Source: a virus. From it: a stretch of DNA of 24,223 nucleotides. The stretch spans positions 1-24,223 of the IMG/VR virus record IMGVR_UViG_3300037149_000284, one strand, 5' to 3'. The position numbers were made by a program, and so were the translations under genes. Positions 9,520-24,223 of the stretch are shown piece after piece. The notes under the pieces are model-generated. The model was not told where the DNA came from. It made no database searches and saw only the letters and a program-made list of their open reading frames with translations. Every line of letters begins with the position of its first letter. Positions within the stretch are counted from its first letter, which is position 1.

Positions 9520-10010
9520 ACTCATCACGCTCTCAATCTTGGTCCTCGGCCTCTGCGACGTCCACGGCAAATAATCAGGAAAAATTTGCCGTGGTTCGGC
9601 AGGGAAACCTGTTTGAAGGAACTTCCAGCGTCCTTCCAGGTTCTCTGAATGATGCGGCACTGATCAGAGCTACGGTTACCGAGGCTATCCGAAAATCTGG
9701 CAAAACCCGCGAAACCATTGCGGAGGACATGTCTCGCCTGACGGGTACAGAAGTAACAGTAAGGCGACTCAACGCTTTTACAGCGGAATCCCGCGAGGAC
9801 TACCGATTCCCGTCCGAATTGATTCGGGCCTTTTGCATCGCCACCGGAAACGATGGTCTTTTGCGCAATCTAGCTCAGCTAGCTGGCTTCCACCTCGTCA
9901 ATGAAACCGATTTTCAGCTACTGCAGCTCGGCCGTGAATACCTCAAGCAGAAACGCGCGAACGAGAAAGTAGCGTTGCTCGAAAAGGGCCTTTCTGGGGT
10001 GGAACTATGA
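9516..10010 (+). CDS. Pre-transposase early protein with HTH-like region
   Basis: This is a 164-aa protein immediately upstream of, and overlapping (ATGA), the transposase gene. After a Ser/Ala-rich N-terminus, residues about 45-115 hold the pattern IRKSGKTRETIAEDMSRLTG, RLNAFTAESREDYRFP, and LIRAFCIATGNDGLLRNLAQ. I associate this pattern with small proteins placed directly before A in other Mu-like phages. It looks like a degenerate XRE-type helix-turn-helix with an added domain. The C-terminus is a charged helix (REYLKQKRANEKVALLEKGL). The function is unknown; a regulator of early genes or a helper of the transposase is likely from position. Confidence 0.65.
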   Translation: MNSSRSQSWSSASATSTANNQEKFAVVRQGNLFEGTSSVLPGSLNDAALIRATVTEAIRKSGKTRETIAEDMSRLTGTEVTVRRLNAFTAESREDYRFPSELIRAFCIATGNDGLLRNLAQLAGFHLVNETDFQLLQLGREYLKQKRANEKVALLEKGLSGVEL

Positions 10011-12118
10011 GCGCCGCCCTCACAGTCCCCCAAGTTGTGGCGCTCGGCGACGGCCAGTGGATCTCTGTTGCGGATGCGGAGAAGTTGACCGGCCTGACGG
10101 ACCGCTGGCTCCGTGACCAGGCCAAGGCCGGCAAGATCATCTCCCGCGCGGCGGCCGAGCGCGCCGCCAACGGCAAGCCCAAGCCTGAATATCTGGTATC
10201 AACGCTGCCGATAAGGACCGAGCGCGCAAAGCTCGCCATCATGCCGAAGCAGCAGAACCTGCCGCTGCTGAGGACGCCGCAGCGCGCCGAAGATCTCTTC
10301 CCCCGTGCGGAGGTTCCTGAGGCTCAGAAGAAAAAGGTTGAGGAACGTTACCAAGCCATTCTTCCCATCCTGATGTTTAAGGCTGAGCCCGAGCGCTACG
10401 CGCACCTGACCCTGCGCGACGGCCGGAGAGTCACATCGCGGGAGCGCATGGTCGTCTTCCAGGCGCAACTCACCGGGAATGATCCGAGCACCCTCAAGCG
10501 CTGGGCTGCGCGGTTCAAGCAGGGCTACGCGGCCCTCGCGGACCGCCCGCGCAAAGACAAAGGTGTCTCCCTCTGGGCGAACCGCGACGAAGCGTCTGCC
10601 ACGCTTGCCAACGTGGCCTGCTATGCCGTGCTCATCGAGCACGTCTCAATCGCGCTTGCTCACGAGATCGTGAAATCTGCGGCGCGCCGCGGCCGCATTG
10701 AAGCCCCGAGCTACGAGACGATCCGCCGGATGATCCACGCTGTGAAGGACGAGAACCCCGCTGCCGTCACTCTCTCGCTGGGCGGCCGCGACATGTATGA
10801 CCGGTTCTTCGCTCCATTCGTCCAGCGCGGCATTACGGATATCGATGCCGGCTACATCCTGATCAGCGACCACATGATTCACGACGTGATCGTGCAGGAT
10901 GACACCTTCAAGAAAGACCGCAGCCTGATCCGCATCCGCTTCACGGGGCTGATGGACTTCCGCTCGCGCCGCTTTACCGCCTACGCCTGGTCGGAAGAGG
11001 GGTCGTCCCGCTCGATCGGCGTCGTCCTTCAGAACCATCTCATCGATTTCGGCACGTTCTTCCAGATGTACTGCGACAACGGAAAGGACTACCAAAAGGC
11101 CGCGCGCGGGGCTCGAGGTGGTCTGTGGACCGCCGCCGATCTCCGGCCCGAGTTACTCGGCGTAGTCGCTCGGATAGGCGCAGATGTCAAGTTTTGCCTG
11201 CCGTTTCACCCACAGGCAAAGTCGATTGAGCGCGCCAATAACACGATCCATGGGCGCTTCGATCGGCGCTGGAATAGCTATTGCGGCGACAAGCCGGAAC
11301 ATCGTCCCGATCTCTGCATCGCGCTTGAAGCCCGGCACAAGAAGTTGCTCGCTGCCGGTCGTGTAGAGGAGTCTGAAATCCCACTGGCCAGCGTCTTCAT
11401 CAAGGCCGCCCGCGCCTATATCGAGGCCGACTACAACAACAGAACAAAGCTCAAAGCGCGCGGTATGCAGGGTATGTCGCCGGTCGAGGCGTGGGATGCC
11501 TACCGCTGGAAAGACTCCAAGCCCGTCGATCCGCTCACAGTTGCTCCGCTATTCCTTTCACGCGCTCGGCGCGCGATCAATAACGAACGTGTGCACATCG
11601 GCGATAACGACTACGTCGCCGCCGACAAGGCCAGTGCCGCGGAACTACACGATCGCGCCATACCTGGCAAGTTGCACATGGTGCTCTACGACCCGTACGA
11701 CGACAACTTCATCGCTGTTGCCGACGATGACGGGTACGCCGTCGCGTGGCTGCACAAGGAACATTATCTGAAGCAGTCGGATGACGAGGAAACCCGCTCC
11801 GCGATCAAGGCCATCATGGAGGCGCGCTCCGAGCACTACCACCGCACCAAGGACAAGCTTCGCGCCCTCAAAGGCGCGGTACTCGACGCGGGCTACGTGC
11901 CCCAGCATCAGGTGATGGTTGCCATCGGCAACCTGCCCATTCCTATCGACGACGTCGTCGTTCAACGCCCGCACAAAGCCGCGGCAAAGTCCGGCGATCC
12001 CATATCTACCCTCTTACCCGGCGAGGCCGGAATACGCCTCGCGAGCCGCTTGCAAGGAGGCAATCGTGATACCCAAAGCGCAGAAAGCGTTCCTGACACA
12101 GATGGGCCTGCCGAGTGA
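10007..12118 (+). CDS. A: MuA-type DDE transposase
   Basis: This 703-aa protein joins phage ends to target DNA in integration and replicative transposition. An N-terminal Mu-type DNA-binding domain covers about residues 10-65 (WISVADAEKLTGLTDRWLRD). A second helix-turn-helix region lies at about 143-185 (ending in ALADRPRKDKG). The catalytic core has Asp288 (ISDHMIHDV), Asp357 (YCDNGKDY) and Glu408 (HPQAKSIER), with spacings of 69 and 51 residues, close to those of MuA. A Mu-type C-terminal beta-barrel follows (about 495-590). A charged helical tail at about 600-640 may contact the B protein. The length is near the usual 660-700 aa. The start ATG 10007 overlaps the previous stop, with GGGGTGG 4 bases before. 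The 3' end overlaps the B gene by 53 bases. Confidence 0.95.
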   Translation: MSAALTVPQVVALGDGQWISVADAEKLTGLTDRWLRDQAKAGKIISRAAAERAANGKPKPEYLVSTLPIRTERAKLAIMPKQQNLPLLRTPQRAEDLFPRAEVPEAQKKKVEERYQAILPILMFKAEPERYAHLTLRDGRRVTSRERMVVFQAQLTGNDPSTLKRWAARFKQGYAALADRPRKDKGVSLWANRDEASATLANVACYAVLIEHVSIALAHEIVKSAARRGRIEAPSYETIRRMIHAVKDENPAAVTLSLGGRDMYDRFFAPFVQRGITDIDAGYILISDHMIHDVIVQDDTFKKDRSLIRIRFTGLMDFRSRRFTAYAWSEEGSSRSIGVVLQNHLIDFGTFFQMYCDNGKDYQKAARGARGGLWTAADLRPELLGVVARIGADVKFCLPFHPQAKSIERANNTIHGRFDRRWNSYCGDKPEHRPDLCIALEARHKKLLAAGRVEESEIPLASVFIKAARAYIEADYNNRTKLKARGMQGMSPVEAWDAYRWKDSKPVDPLTVAPLFLSRARRAINNERVHIGDNDYVAADKASAAELHDRAIPGKLHMVLYDPYDDNFIAVADDDGYAVAWLHKEHYLKQSDDEETRSAIKAIMEARSEHYHRTKDKLRALKGAVLDAGYVPQHQVMVAIGNLPIPIDDVVVQRPHKAAAKSGDPISTLLPGEAGIRLASRLQGGNRDTQSAESVPDTDGPAE

Positions 12119-13034
12119 CATCGACACAATTAAGCGTGCGCGCATGTTCATGGCCGAGTCCGGCTCAACTACGGGCGATCTGGCAGACCTCGCCGATCTA
12201 AATCCGAACTCGCTCCGCGTGTACCTCAGCGGCTCCTACGACGCTCACAAACCGGCCGACTCGAACACGTTGGTTATTCGCGCCAAGCTCAAGCGCGCCA
12301 TCGATCTGCATGAGATCAAGCGCCGCAGCCGCGAGAATCGCCACTACCCCACCACGGAATATGACGTGGGCCGCGCATCCATCATCGAGACAATGTCAGA
12401 TGGCAGCGCCGTGATTTTCGAGGGCGCATGCGGTATCGGAAAGTCCTGGATGGCCCAGGGCGTCGCCGAAGAAATCAACAAAAGCAAGATCGGCCGCGCA
12501 ATTTACGTCTACTGCGTCGATGGTTTGACTCCGCAATCATTCCTCTCGGAGTGCTGCGTCCAGGCCAAGATACCCTCTCGCGGCAACATCATGCAGCTTC
12601 TGCGCAAGCTCTCTTACTTTCTTCAGGAAGAGCATCCGGTGCTCATCGTTGATGAGGCACAGGCGCTCCCAAAGAAAACACTCGAAATTCTGCGCAGTCT
12701 CTACGACCTGCGCGGCTACGGCATTGTCCTGACTGCGTCTTATGACCTGGTCACGCGGTTGAAGGAATACAAGATGCAGATGTGGAACAGCCGGATCGCG
12801 CGCACCCACCTGCTCCAGGGAGCGACCAGGGAAGAGGCTGCCCACATGCTCACGAGCGAACTCGGTCCGATGAGCAAGCGCGACATTGACGACACGCTCG
12901 CCGATGTCACGCTGGAGGCGATCCGGGACGGCGTGAAGTACAAGTACATCGCTCTCCGCAATCTCTTTTGGGCCATCAAGGCCGCTCGCAAGGCGATGAC
13001 AGCAGCACAGCAGAGAGAAGAGGCGATCGCATGA
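12066..13034 (+). CDS. B: MuB-type AAA+ target-selection ATPase
   Basis: This is a 322-aa protein from GTG 12066, which has an excellent ribosome site (AGGAGG, 5 bases before). Longer readings have none. The N-terminus has a small HTH-like region (residues about 33-58, STTGDLADLADLNPNSLRVY), as in MuB. The ATPase core shows Walker A GACGIGKS (120-127) and Walker B VLIVDEAQAL (192-201). A sensor-like segment YGIVLTASYD follows around 218-227. Family knowledge: MuB polymerises on DNA with ATP, delivers the target to the transposase, stimulates it and gives target immunity. The gene lies directly after A, overlapping it by 53 bases in another frame. Confidence 0.93.
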   Translation: MIPKAQKAFLTQMGLPSDIDTIKRARMFMAESGSTTGDLADLADLNPNSLRVYLSGSYDAHKPADSNTLVIRAKLKRAIDLHEIKRRSRENRHYPTTEYDVGRASIIETMSDGSAVIFEGACGIGKSWMAQGVAEEINKSKIGRAIYVYCVDGLTPQSFLSECCVQAKIPSRGNIMQLLRKLSYFLQEEHPVLIVDEAQALPKKTLEILRSLYDLRGYGIVLTASYDLVTRLKEYKMQMWNSRIARTHLLQGATREEAAHMLTSELGPMSKRDIDDTLADVTLEAIRDGVKYKYIALRNLFWAIKAARKAMTAAQQREEAIA

Positions 13035-19011: not shown

Positions 19012-19262
19012 ACTTCAATCGAGAGCAGCAGCAGGCAATCGGGAATCTCTATCACGCGCTGGTGCAGTCCCTGGCCGCAACGCCTGGATTCGCGGAATAC
19101 ATTGCGGATCTGCGAGCTGCTGGCCTGTGCCTCACTGAAGCAAATATCGACTTGTCCATCGTGGCTCTTCAGGATGATCACGCGCCGGAACAATCCGATG
19201 CCAACTGGCTGAAGAGCATGCGCATAGCGCCTGATCTGGAGGTACCGCATGACTCTCAATGA
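19008..19262 (+). CDS. Small helical protein
   Basis: This is an 84-aa protein from GTG 19008 (GTGA overlap with the GemA-like stop; AAAGGA upstream). It has helical stretches (NREQQQAIGNLYHALVQSLA; FAEYIADLRAAGLCLTEANI) and an acidic end. The family is unknown. It overlaps the next gene by 14 bases. Confidence 0.5.
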   Translation: MNFNREQQQAIGNLYHALVQSLAATPGFAEYIADLRAAGLCLTEANIDLSIVALQDDHAPEQSDANWLKSMRIAPDLEVPHDSQ

Positions 19263-19767
19263 GGTCCAGCTGCTGCTGCCTTTCGCCGAGCGCGAATACA
19301 TCAGTGCGAAGCGCGCGGCGCGGATCCTCGGCGTGGGTTATGTAACGATCCTTGATCTCTACGCGGCCCGTCGCATCGAAATGGTCGATTACGCCAAGCA
19401 TAAGCACAAGCGTGTGAAGTACGCCTCGATCGTCGCCTTTTGCGACCGCCTGCGCGAACGCTATGGCATCGCGAACCGGCGCCCGCCGCTGCCTTCGCCG
19501 ATGTTCCGCCATCGCGACGAGGATCTTCTGCCTTTCCCGCTGAGCGACACGATCAGCGTTAAAGACACCATGGAGATCCTCGGCTTCGATTCACCGTTCC
19601 CAGTGCGCCAGATGATCGAGCAAGGACTGTTTGAGGGTTACAAGATCTCCGGCCCGAGCCCCTGGCGCATCTCGCGCAACTCGCTGGCTTCCTTCCTCGC
19701 GCATGTGCACCATGTCGCGGAGCCAGCCGAGTCTGGCGAGAAGTTACGGGCGGCGAGTGCTTTTTAA
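19249..19767 (+). CDS. Tandem helix-turn-helix protein (last early gene)
   Basis: This is a 172-aa protein with two excisionase/MerR-like helix-turn-helix domains. The first is at about residues 17-70 (YISAKRAARILGVGYVTILD, ending KYASIVAFCDRL). The second, more divergent, is at about 101-152 (TISVKDTMEILGFDSPFPVR, ending ISRNSLASFLA). The duplicated fold suggests binding to a bipartite or long site. As the last gene of the early operon it occupies the place where a middle/late activator (Mor or C in Mu) would be expected, but it shows no Mor-family signature. Its last codons form part of the 32-bp repeat at 19741-19772. Confidence 0.65.
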   Translation: MTLNEVQLLLPFAEREYISAKRAARILGVGYVTILDLYAARRIEMVDYAKHKHKRVKYASIVAFCDRLRERYGIANRRPPLPSPMFRHRDEDLLPFPLSDTISVKDTMEILGFDSPFPVRQMIEQGLFEGYKISGPSPWRISRNSLASFLAHVHHVAEPAESGEKLRAASAF

Positions 19768-19811: not shown

Positions 19812-22466
19812 ATGAAGCGCTTACTAGCTCTCGCCGTTCTGCTCTGTTCCGTCCCCTTCGCATTCGCGCAGTCGCAATATGTGCAACTTATTGGATCGAA
19901 TATCACCGATGCTGCCGGCAACAAGCTGCAGAGCGGCACAATCACGTTTACGCCCGTGAGCAGCGCGGGCGCACCGGTGGCTCCGCACCTCACGCTGGGC
20001 GGACGAGCGGTACCGGCTACCGTCACCTTCTCGGTGGTCAACGGTGCGATCCAGGCCGCATACGGAACCACGCAACTCGCCGATGTGTCGCAGGCCTTTC
20101 CGCAGAACTTCTGCTATGCCGACACGATTCATGACAACGGAACGGGCGACACATGGAGCCCGGATACGTGCGTACAGCCAGCCTTCAACGCGAACTGGTG
20201 TACGGTGTCGAGCGGCCAAACGACATGCAACTTCGATCAGTTTCTTCCGATGGGTACGCCGGGCGCGATGGTTGCGGCTCCGTCTCTCAAAGGCGGCACC
20301 TTTTCGACAGGCGCGGCCGGCAGCCCGGTATCATGCAGCGTGGATCTAGCAGGACCCGCGCCGAGTTATGCGCTGAGCTGCACCATCCCGCAGGGCATAC
20401 AAGGTATCCAGGGCATCCCTGCATTGCTCGGCCAGGGCAAGGGCGCCTATAGCTCGACCACAACTTACAACGCCGGCGAAGTGGTCGCTTACAACGGCCA
20501 AAGCTACGCATCCTTCGTGTCATCGAACCTGGGCAATCAGCCGGACATCAGCTCCACGAAATGGGGTCTGCTCGCGAATCTTTCGAACTTGCCAACGGCG
20601 TTCGCATCGCAATCGCAGGCCAATCCAGACAAGGGCTACTTCAGTACCGTCGCGGCCACCACTCCAATATCGAACTCCAGCGGAGGCCTTGGGAATACAA
20701 CAGGAACTGCGCAGCACTCGCTTAACCTGCCCGCTGATTTTTCAGCCCAAAGCGCGGCAAATCCCCAGGCGGCGACTTTTACGGCGTTAAGTACGCTTGC
20801 TAACAGTTCCAACCCGCCACTCATCATCTACGACGATGACTTGGCCTCTGACCCGGATACGTGGACGCTTAATGCAATCCATTACTGGATCGATACTAAT
20901 CAAGTTCAGGTTCTTGCGTTCATCGCGGATTCTTCGAACCCAAATACCGCGCCGCTTATGAAGGTATTTGAACAGTATTGGCATCACACGGGCATACCTA
21001 TCGGAGCCTATCAAGGAAACGGAGTTCCAGATGGAAGCGCGAGCACGTGGATAGCTGGTGTTATCTCTACTCTCGATCCCGGAGACACACGAACAAACTA
21101 CACAGATTGTGTAACTGAATATCGGACGGTACTTGCAGCGGCTGCCAACAACAGCGTGAAGATCGTAGAGGCGGGGTTTCCTACTTGCCTTGTCGGACTG
21201 CTTGCCTCGGGGGCCGATGGAATCAGTTCATTGACTGGTCCGCAGTTGATTCAGGCCAAGGTGATTTCACTCGATATCATGGGGGGAAAATATCCGTCGA
21301 GTTTTGGTAGCCCGGAATGGAATTTTGCGTTTGACCCATCAGATAACAACACGCTTTTTACAACGTGGACCATGCAGAACGGATATCCTCCGATTTACCT
21401 TAACGGGTATGCTAACGGTCTGCCGATCAATACAGGAACGCCGCTATGGTTCCCAACAGCTAACTGCACCCCAACTGGTATCGCTGGCGGAAGTTGCCAC
21501 CCAAGTGCTTACGTTGCACAGCAGACCTCTACTTACAATCGCCCAGCATGGGATGTGCTTTCAGCATTCCATGCGATATTTGGTAATTCGTCATGGTCAA
21601 CGAGCGTAAGCGGCACCAACGTCATAAACACGGTAACTGGAGACAATACGTGGTCTAGCTCACCCGCTTCGAGACAATATTATATCACGACAACACAGCC
21701 AACTAGTTACTACGAGTCGTTTCTCGATGGACAAAACTTTTTTGGCACGGGTGCAAACGGGTTTTACCCTGCCGCGATAACTCCGAATATCCGATCTTAT
21801 GATGGACTACAGTGCAACGCGTATAACGGGTGCTCGGTCCCATCCCTAGGGATCGGGGGGAATTTCCAGTTCTCTCCGTCTGGGGGTAATCTTTTTCTGA
21901 CTACCTTAGGTAGTGAGTTTAATTTTACAAATAGCGCAAACAACACCTATTTCGGATTTGGTCAAGCGGCTACTGCGGGAAACTCTGGATACCTGCGGTT
22001 TGGTTATGTCGGAGACGGGAGCGCGTATAACGCTATAGGAATCGGGTTCAACGCAGGCACGGATGTGCTCACGCTAACGCCCTCGCTGGCGACCTTCACC
22101 GCCAGCATACAGGCAACCTCAGGATCTCTCAATCCATACACGTTGACTACCACGGCAAATGGAACATACACAGAGGGGCTTCTTTTGTTGGCCCCTAATC
22201 TGACAGCCGGACATGCGGTCGATATAGATTTTGGGGTGGCCGGATCAAACTACAACGAGGGGAGCATCGGTCTTCTTTACAACGGCTCGGGGTCAACGTC
22301 GAACTACATTCGATTCTCGTTTTACGGCGGACCTGACGCTATGCGGATTATGGGAACCGGGCAAGTTGTTATACCCGGAATCCATTCGACCACTGGGTCA
22401 AGGTATGTGTGTATTGGTACCAGCGGCGAACTTGTATCGTCAGTATCGGCGTGCAGCGGAACATAG
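19812..22466 (+). CDS. Secreted fibre-like protein with nucleoside-hydrolase-like domain
   Basis: This is an 884-aa protein. A Sec signal peptide (residues 1-19, cleavage after AFA) is followed by a beta domain (20-190) and a very short Gly-Ile-Gln repeat (194-204). Next is a small chitin/carbohydrate-binding-like module (211-252: AYSSTTTYNAGEVVAYNGQS). A nucleoside-hydrolase-like domain spans about 337-600. It shows the Asp cluster at 341-349 (IIYDDDLASDPDT), the MGG...EWNFAFDP signature, and RPAWDVLSAFHAI for the last metal-binding Asp. The C-terminal part (about 640-884) is Gly/Asn/Ser-rich beta structure. Family knowledge: nucleoside hydrolases cleave the N-glycosidic bond of ribonucleosides. 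The combination looks like a receptor-binding or surface fibre, but a true phage tail fibre would not need a signal peptide. From about 20.78 kb the DNA becomes less GC-rich, so the fibre part may be acquired. Confidence 0.7.
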   Translation: MKRLLALAVLLCSVPFAFAQSQYVQLIGSNITDAAGNKLQSGTITFTPVSSAGAPVAPHLTLGGRAVPATVTFSVVNGAIQAAYGTTQLADVSQAFPQNFCYADTIHDNGTGDTWSPDTCVQPAFNANWCTVSSGQTTCNFDQFLPMGTPGAMVAAPSLKGGTFSTGAAGSPVSCSVDLAGPAPSYALSCTIPQGIQGIQGIPALLGQGKGAYSSTTTYNAGEVVAYNGQSYASFVSSNLGNQPDISSTKWGLLANLSNLPTAFASQSQANPDKGYFSTVAATTPISNSSGGLGNTTGTAQHSLNLPADFSAQSAANPQAATFTALSTLANSSNPPLIIYDDDLASDPDTWTLNAIHYWIDTNQVQVLAFIADSSNPNTAPLMKVFEQYWHHTGIPIGAYQGNGVPDGSASTWIAGVISTLDPGDTRTNYTDCVTEYRTVLAAAANNSVKIVEAGFPTCLVGLLASGADGISSLTGPQLIQAKVISLDIMGGKYPSSFGSPEWNFAFDPSDNNTLFTTWTMQNGYPPIYLNGYANGLPINTGTPLWFPTANCTPTGIAGGSCHPSAYVAQQTSTYNRPAWDVLSAFHAIFGNSSWSTSVSGTNVINTVTGDNTWSSSPASRQYYITTTQPTSYYESFLDGQNFFGTGANGFYPAAITPNIRSYDGLQCNAYNGCSVPSLGIGGNFQFSPSGGNLFLTTLGSEFNFTNSANNTYFGFGQAATAGNSGYLRFGYVGDGSAYNAIGIGFNAGTDVLTLTPSLATFTASIQATSGSLNPYTLTTTANGTYTEGLLLLAPNLTAGHAVDIDFGVAGSNYNEGSIGLLYNGSGSTSNYIRFSFYGGPDAMRIMGTGQVVIPGIHSTTGSRYVCIGTSGELVSSVSACSGT

Positions 22467-22476
22467 GAAGGGAGTC

Positions 22477-22764
22477 ATGCTAAAAATCATTATCATCTCA
22501 AGCATGTTGGTGGCTGGGGTTGTCGGAGCGCAGACCCCAGACAAGCGGATAGCACAGATATCGCCAGAACAGCGGGCAGTATTCTGGCGCGCGCAGGCCG
22601 AGCAACTTGCTGCACAGATGCGCCTCGAAATGGCAAATCGCCAATTGCAAGCTGCTCGCGAAGCTATGGTCAAAGCATGTGTAGAAGCTGAACTCGTGTC
22701 TGATTCAGGCGGAGAACCAATGTGCCATCCCAAGCCAGACGCAGGAGATCTGGTGAGGAAGTAG
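22477..22764 (+). CDS. Small secreted helical protein
   Basis: This is a 95-aa protein with a good ribosome site (GGAAGGGAG, 2 bases before). The N-terminal signal peptide (residues 1-18, ending VGA) is followed by a helix rich in Ala, Gln, Arg and Glu (RAVFWRAQAEQLAAQMRLEM), like a coiled coil. Two cysteines lie in the C-terminal part (VKACVEAEL, GEPMCHPK). It follows the fibre-like gene by 10 bases and is likely co-transcribed with it. It could be an export partner or chaperone for the fibre. The family is unknown. Confidence 0.58.
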   Translation: MLKIIIISSMLVAGVVGAQTPDKRIAQISPEQRAVFWRAQAEQLAAQMRLEMANRQLQAAREAMVKACVEAELVSDSGGEPMCHPKPDAGDLVRK

Positions 22765-22980: not shown

Positions 22981-23421
22981 ATGCCTAGTCAGAAAGAATC
23001 GATTCAGAAGGATTGTCAATTTGCAGATGAATGGACTGAAGAAGATCGTAGGGCAGAGCTGGACCTGATCCGAAAAGGGCGCGCTGCAGTCCTTGAATCT
23101 CAGAACTACTCGATTGAGAAAATGGCGGAGTTACTGGCTAAAGCTCAGATTGCTTTGGAAATCGAATGGGAAGCGAAGCGCGAGTGTGTCAAGCGTTATC
23201 TCGATGCGACCGGGCGTGGGCAATACGGAAGTGAAACTCTGGAGTATGAAATCGGCTTCTTCGAGAGATTAGGAGAAAGCAGTATTATTTTTCGGCATGG
23301 AAGCAACGACCTAGCCAAAAGCCGTCATGAGGAAGGATTCAAGAACAGCGGGCCGGATGACTCCGGCCCGCGTGGGTTTAGAGGTAGCTCGGAGCATACA
23401 TGCGGTACTGCTGCTGAGTGA
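22981..23421 (+). CDS. Hypothetical helical acidic protein
   Basis: This is a 146-aa protein from ATG 22981, chosen for its ribosome site (GGGAGG, 4 bases before) over an upstream in-frame start at 22801. Residues about 15-85 are helical and charged (EWTEEDRRAELDLIRKGRAA; MAELLAKAQIALEIEWEAKR). The C-terminal part is less ordered. Its 3' end runs through a hairpin (23350-23369) and overlaps the convergent recombinase gene by 44 bases. The last 30 residues may therefore not matter. No family is recognised. Confidence 0.5.
   Translation: MPSQKESIQKDCQFADEWTEEDRRAELDLIRKGRAAVLESQNYSIEKMAELLAKAQIALEIEWEAKRECVKRYLDATGRGQYGSETLEYEIGFFERLGESSIIFRHGSNDLAKSRHEEGFKNSGPDDSGPRGFRGSSEHTCGTAAE
23350..23369 (-). 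terminator. Hairpin terminator after the recombinase gene
   Basis: A perfect 8-bp stem (GGGCCGGA, loop of 4 bases, TCCGGCCC) lies 8 bases past the recombinase stop codon. The minus-strand sequence after it is moderately T-rich (GCTGTTCTTG). The plus side is followed by GCGTGGGTTT. It probably works for the leftward recombinase transcript, and perhaps in both directions. Confidence 0.6.
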
Positions 23422-24223
23422 GATCTGGATCGCTGTGAACGTAGATCATGGTGGTCTCCACAAATGCGTGGCCGAGCTGCTCCTTAATGGCCAGCAGATG
23501 AGCACCACGACGCAACAGGTTGGTGGCGAGAGAATGACGCAACAAGTGAGGATAGACGCGCTTCTTCAAGCCCGCACGCTTCGCGGCCGCGCGGATCATC
23601 TTGCGCAGATCCTGTTGCGAGTAGAAGCCCTTGCGGCGAAGGGAAAGAAAGACCAGGTCCTCGGGCTGGCCGCCGCGCTCGCGCAGGTATTCGGCGAGCA
23701 TCGAAACACAGGGGGCGGCGATGTGCGCGTTGCGATCCTTCTGAGTCTTCGTCCCGTTGATGTGGAGCGTCTGGGCGCCCAGATCGACGTCGCGGATCCG
23801 CAGCCGGCAGAGCTCGCGATTGCGCAGCCCTGCATAGGCCAGAGTTGCGATGATCGTGCGCTCGCGCAACGTGCGCCCCGCATGGATCAGCAGCGTCACT
23901 TCGGCCTCGCTCAGGACACCGCGCACCAGGTGCTTAGGCTTCCTCGGACGCCCCAGATGAATAGGCTTTCCGATGAACGCGCAGTAGGTCTCGATCGCCG
24001 TCGACGTGTTGGTGATGTGCGAGTACGACGCCCCGCTTTTGTGCATCCTTTCGATGTGCTGATCGATCACTTTCGGTGTGGGATTCAGGCCGATGACAGG
24101 GGCAAGCCGGCGCATCGCCGAGACGTAGTTGTAGACGGTGGTCTCACCCAGTCCGCGGCGCGCATAAAGGTAGCGCTCAAAGCGGACGAGAGTGGCCTGC
24201 AGATTAGAATGATTTGCAGCCAT
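23378..24223 (-). CDS. Tyrosine recombinase (site-specific integrase)
   Basis: This is a 281-aa protein reading to the right edge, where its ATG is the last codon seen. A slightly longer N-terminus outside the window cannot be excluded. An N-terminal SAM-like core-binding domain (about 8-85: RFERYLYARRGLGETTVYNY) is followed by the catalytic domain. The complete set is present: Arg134 (AGLRNREL), Lys159 (GTKTQKD), His226 and Arg229 (PHLLRHS), His252 (LGHAF), and the nucleophile Tyr261 (MIYVHS). Family knowledge: such enzymes catalyse site-specific recombination, as phage integrases or Xer-like enzymes. The size and pattern fit XerC/D-like integrases of mobile elements. A Mu-type phage does not need it. 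It may belong to another element or to the host. No att site or tRNA was seen in the window. Confidence 0.88.
   Translation of the reverse strand: MAANHSNLQATLVRFERYLYARRGLGETTVYNYVSAMRRLAPVIGLNPTPKVIDQHIERMHKSGASYSHITNTSTAIETYCAFIGKPIHLGRPRKPKHLVRGVLSEAEVTLLIHAGRTLRERTIIATLAYAGLRNRELCRLRIRDVDLGAQTLHINGTKTQKDRNAHIAAPCVSMLAEYLRERGGQPEDLVFLSLRRKGFYSQQDLRKMIRAAAKRAGLKKRVYPHLLRHSLATNLLRRGAHLLAIKEQLGHAFVETTMIYVHSDPDLTQQQYRMYAPSYL

Follow-up and report, generated by a model that had tools for sequence, protein, structure and literature searches.

The middle of an 884-amino-acid fibre-like protein from a Mu-like phage carries a diverged nucleoside-hydrolase (NH)-like domain, and the interpretation that we favor, with a probability of about 0.55, is that of an exported accessory fibre whose NH-fold head binds, and possibly cleaves, a glycosidic ligand. 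The window analyzed here is a virus record of 24,223 bases (IMGVR_UViG_3300037149_000284), the gene content of which points to a Mu-like transposable phage: a transposase (10007-12118; phrog_310, E 3e-58) and a MuB-like ATPase (11919-13034) are encoded along with a Mu Gp27-like protein, a terminase, an SPP1-like portal (454-2130), a lysozyme, and an HTH repressor. This 24-kb fragment closes on the right with a tyrosine recombinase (23378-24223), which shares the contig with the Mu-type transposase and may be a sign of host DNA or of a second integration system. Because of this gene, the right phage boundary is tentative. The host is probably a member of the Acidobacteriota, judging from a remark in an earlier interpretation of this DNA made without database searches (hereafter the sequence-only reading) and from similarity to the Tunturiibacter phage Tunturi_5.

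The NH-like domain was delimited by sequence homology to amino acids ~332-616 (20805..21659, + strand). The Pfam PF01156 profile did not match it even at E 10, NCBIfam and PHROG profiles were equally blind to it, and phmmer identified no relative in the PDB. A tblastn search of plasmid records with amino acids 332-611 retrieved a “nucleoside hydrolase” from Rhizobium rhizoryzae (32.5% identity, E 6e-16) together with an ORF from Gemmatirosa (27% identity, E 1e-13), both of which are PF01156 members (E 1.5e-19 and 3e-20, respectively). When compared as a single sequence by hhalign to a cellular profile built from four NHs, including E. coli RihA and none from phages, the domain scored 104 (E 7e-15, probability 98.4%) in an alignment of 275 columns. 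Controls scored 11-19; these were 20 shuffled versions, the domain read in reverse, and the regions of the fibre N-terminal and C-terminal to the domain. Sensitive comparison thus revealed whole-domain homology to PF01156 with negative controls, and the proposal of the sequence-only reading that an NH-like domain sits within a phage-borne, signal-peptide-bearing, fibre-like protein is borne out beyond chance similarity. Relatives from the DTDMxxDxDD subfamily of PF01156 (Gemmatirosa, Parabacteroides, and protein WP_165137779 of a Rhizobium phage-plasmid) are homologous over the whole domain at 26-32% identity and share the D/D/E/N/D pocket residues with the window protein, which differs from them in having Thr for the last Asp of the motif, in its embedding within a fibre, and in falling below Pfam detection.

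A mixed four-sequence profile had its best PDB matches to the XopQ structures 4kl0, 4p5f, and 7jlu (E 2e-10 to 3e-10) and also found RihA (E 5e-7), although this profile includes bona fide NHs, and these matches hence indicate the nearest NH branch rather than providing independent proof. An AlphaFold model of the domain, obtained from two sequences only, reached an unusably low pLDDT of 35, and its Foldseek matches carry no meaning: the top one was an NH, but at E 0.12 and TM 0.17, with all matches at E 0.12 or above. Overall, sequence comparison supports the assignment of this domain to the NH superfamily.

The surrounding protein is encoded by an intact ORF (19812..22466, + strand) and begins, as the sequence-only reading had indicated, with a signal peptide (19812..19868, + strand), i.e., MKRLLALAVLLCSVPFAFA with predicted cleavage before QSQ, which appears to be of the classical, signal peptidase I type (all signal peptides were judged by eye from sequence). 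It is followed by a conserved N-terminal module (19866..20280, + strand) common to the fibre of another Mu-like phage, IMGVR_UViG_3300047661_000105 (L003), with 66% identity over 138 amino acids. Peptide-pattern scans with this N-terminus yielded one relative in viral contigs and none in genome contigs, and a single-sequence AlphaFold model of the module had an unusably low pLDDT of 35. A collagen-like run (GIQGIQGIP) and a CBM_5_12-like module come next (20388..20579, + strand; amino acids 193-256). This segment holds the entire match to the tail-fibre family phrog_5073 (E 2.4e-5), which provides a tail-fibre sequence module. A sugar-binding-like module had also been proposed, and a Pfam CBM_5_12 match does lie within the phrog_5073 match at amino acids 212-234 (E 4e-5), although at 24.0 bits it is below the 26.2-bit cut-off. 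Downstream of the NH-like domain, the beta-rich C-terminal part of the fibre (amino acids 640-884; 21729..22463, + strand) had no relatives when viral and genome contigs were scanned with peptide patterns. Among the profile comparisons, a baseplate hub protein (8fqc) was matched weakly (E 0.003) over only ~60 residues, and this match was set aside.

Both the distribution and the composition of these parts suggest a mosaic origin. The fibre of IMGVR_UViG_3300047661_000105 has a similar leader, MRTRILALLPLLASSLLYAQ, and its N-terminal module again follows GemA-like and HTH genes, i.e., it occupies a matching gene position, but beyond this module it is unrelated to the window protein. The N-terminal module has a GC content at third codon positions (GC3) of 0.71, which drops to 0.50 in the NH part and 0.53 in the C-terminal part, compared to ~0.75 in phage core genes. 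The shared N-terminus with an unrelated remainder, combined with this drop in GC3, supports a fibre made of a conserved, putatively exported base and swappable heads. Phage tail fibres and tailspikes with enzymatic heads are similarly modular, with a swappable head domain on a shared N-terminus; the window protein is built alike, but differs from them in its signal peptide and in a gene located apart from the head and lysis genes. Head genes also differ between the two phages, with a Mu portal in IMGVR_UViG_3300047661_000105 that the window phage lacks. The syntenic relative of the window phage encodes a true Mu portal (G001:C1:21139-22179), versus the SPP1-like portal and Mu Gp27-like protein of the window, which points to an exchange of head modules between phages that are otherwise similar.

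Two unrelated phages of soil bacteria also carry NH-like domains, in both cases within gene blocks for tail or structural proteins. In the acidobacterial phage Tunturi_5, gp338 (602 amino acids) resembles the NH region of the window protein (tblastn E 0.01, pairwise BLASTP 2e-7) and likewise combines a signal peptide with an NH-like domain beside tail-fibre genes, although it belongs to the structural block of a jumbo myophage, has another N-terminal domain, and is only 22% identical. Its NH assignment is less sure because gp338 alone gives a weak match to the profile of cellular NHs (hhalign probability 6.7%), and it is tied to NHs mainly through the window protein. A LamG domain considered in gp338 had no Pfam match, and BLASTP to the LamG part of the Rhizobium protein was not significant. 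The six consecutive coding sequences gp337-gp342 (L066:22115-36449), which comprise gp338 with its NH-like domain, three annotated tail fibers, and two small proteins, each start with a signal-peptide-like leader; the tail fibres of Tunturi_3 that we inspected lack such leaders. The second case, Rhizobium NZ_CP049252, is filed as a plasmid but encodes a terminase, capsid, portal, and ParA/ParB, and is a phage-plasmid. Its NH protein consists of an NH domain and a Laminin_G_3 domain, and the gene, situated between tail genes and an endolysin, overlaps the terminal part of a tail-like gene.

With the methods used, NH domains on phage structural proteins appear to be rare. A scan for relatives based on the mixed alignment returned solely the Rhizobium phage again, and among 57 matches to DTDMxxDxDD in a DNA pattern scan of IMG/VR, only the Rhizobium phage copy was an NH. 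Exact peptide patterns from the NH part had no match in viral and genome contigs, and the same architecture, which the sequence-only reading suggested seeking in other acidobacterial prophages, was not recovered by these scans, which detect close relatives only. In the literature searched, we found free-standing phage NHs only and no report of an NH domain on a phage tail protein or of an NH fold as a tail-fibre or tailspike head, and the term is absent from the searched text of PMC3482391, which was consulted for NH among listed polymorphic-toxin domains. The description of this protein as unusual has thus held so far, with three unrelated phages found and none so described in that literature. 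The recurrence suggests that the NH fold has been reused on phage surface proteins.

These genomic contexts also bear on whether the protein is part of the virion. It could be a true tail fibre or tail tip, with the NH domain as a receptor-binding or depolymerase head and a leader that either does not export or acts before assembly. The tail-fibre PHROG and collagen-like linker fit this possibility, as do relatives encoded among the tail or structural genes of Tunturi_5 and the Rhizobium phage, yet gp338 seems to owe its “virion structural” label to computational annotation (“mass spectrometry” is absent from the main text of the source paper), and a classical cleavable signal peptide would be at odds with a virion role. 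Within the 24-kb fragment to which our comparison of gene positions applies, with the tail cluster or operon lying outside the contig, the fibre gene lies where the + strand early arm ends, apparently outside any tail operon. It adjoins an HTH/excisionase-like regulator directly 5' of it (19249..19767, + strand) and is distant from the head and lysis genes on the opposite strand; both the position of the regulator and this overall arrangement recur in IMGVR_UViG_3300047661_000105. We favor an exported accessory protein because of this early-arm position by a regulator and of the signal peptide, and consider a virion component unlikely. Only 10 nt separate the fibre gene from that of a small, putatively exported protein of 95 amino acids (22477-22764, + strand), in which a signal peptide is followed by a helix-like stretch starting with SPEQ, and the two are possibly co-expressed. 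Similarity of this small protein to gp339 and gp340 of Tunturi_5 was not above that of shuffles.

The residues lining the putative pocket bear on what the head might do. The sequence-only reading had singled out three NH landmarks, and all are present without being fully canonical. In the first, the Asp motif DDDLASDPDT (amino acids 341-350; 20832..20861, + strand), D341, D343, D347, and D349 align with the subfamily consensus DTDMxxDxDD, but Thr350 replaces the second Asp of the final DD pair, a residue that binds Ca2+ in characterised NHs. The second, MGG-KYPSSFGSPEWNFAFDP, carries E502 and N504 (E502-W-N504; 21315..21323, + strand), which correspond to the E-F-N with which NHs contact ribose. 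The third, RPAWDVLSAFHAI, carries D581 within RPAWD (21552..21554, + strand), the equivalent of the C-terminal Ca2+-ligand Asp. In an alignment of seven relatives, D343, D347, D349, E502, N504, and D581 are retained in the window protein.

The N-terminal hallmark of NHs is DXDXXXDD (PMC3608555), whereas the window protein reads DxDxxxDxDT. The DTDMxxDxDD motif of Rhizobium and Gemmatirosa is two residues longer than the hallmark, through an insert common to the window protein and the subfamily, and its spacing matches the DxxxDxDD of HopQ1/XopQ (PMC3608555, PMC11685791). Of the three acidic residues that bind Ca2+ (two Asp in the motif plus the C-terminal one), D343 and D581 are kept; the third, expected at the last Asp of the DxDxxxDxDD family, is Thr350. 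The calcium-binding aspartates sought by the sequence-only reading are hence present in part. The Ca2+-interacting residues of HopQ1 include D101, D108, and D384 (PMC3608555), and while D101 and D384 correspond to the retained D343 and D581, D108 corresponds to Thr350. HopQ1/XopQ proteins (PDB 4p5f, 4kl0, 7jlu), the best PDB profile matches, share a non-canonical motif and the D-x-x-x-D-x-D spacing with the window protein; unlike the latter, they keep the final DD, lack fibre modules, and act in plants as type III-secreted effectors. HopQ1, the Asp motif of which is also altered, has no detectable NH activity (PMC3608555), and XopQ still coordinates calcium (PMC11685791). The metal site of the window protein therefore seems changed but not obviously destroyed. 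With one metal ligand lost and no match to the hallmark motif, its primary sequence does not support membership as an NH enzyme.

The NH-like domain could be non-functional because Thr350 would remove a Ca2+ ligand and further losses occur in gp338, which has Asn at this position and lacks more pocket residues. A catalytically dead NH fold serving only as a lectin-like binding module would also be consistent with the placement of NH domains beside CBM-like or LamG modules, but the retention of D343, D349, E502, N504, and D581 exceeds what would be expected of a decayed enzyme and the Asp motif is complete in the Rhizobium phage protein, which makes this possibility improbable. The least probable is an active secreted nucleosidase for nucleoside salvage by the lysogen or infected cell, akin to secreted bacterial NHs: most pocket residues are kept and one cellular relative, an NH, has a sugar transporter and a gene of the ADP-ribosylglycohydrolase family as neighbors, but the nucleoside-scavenging role raised by the sequence-only reading is doubtful because the metal site is altered by the replacement of a Ca2+-ligand Asp with Thr, HopQ1 with its altered motif has no detectable NH activity (PMC3608555), and a fibre scaffold would be superfluous for salvage.

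For the exported accessory fibre that we favor, the phage-conserved signal peptide and N-terminal module would direct Sec export of a mosaic protein, ordered as N-terminal module, collagen-like/CBM-like linker, swapped-in NH-fold head, and beta-rich C-terminal part. The fibre would then most likely remain on display at the surface of the infected cell or lysogen, or be released from it. Its head, presumably a diverged domain of the DxDxxxDxDD subfamily, would have a pocket suited best to a ribose-like sugar, and may bind this or another glycosidic ligand, on surface glycans or as free nucleosides, and possibly cleave it.

If this interpretation is correct, a fold not known from phage fibres would be added to the heads by which phages contact the surface of cells, and acidobacterial phages, the hosts of which have poorly characterized receptors and surface glycans, would include signal-peptide-bearing fibre proteins. 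Since Tunturi_5 and its host are cultured, the export, virion content, and activity of gp338 are directly testable. More broadly, and tentatively, phages of soil bacteria may use the NH fold as an extracellular head on exported fibres, which would represent a new class of surface or secreted enzymes or lectins directed at ribose-like glycans and delivered by the host Sec pathway rather than by the virion only.
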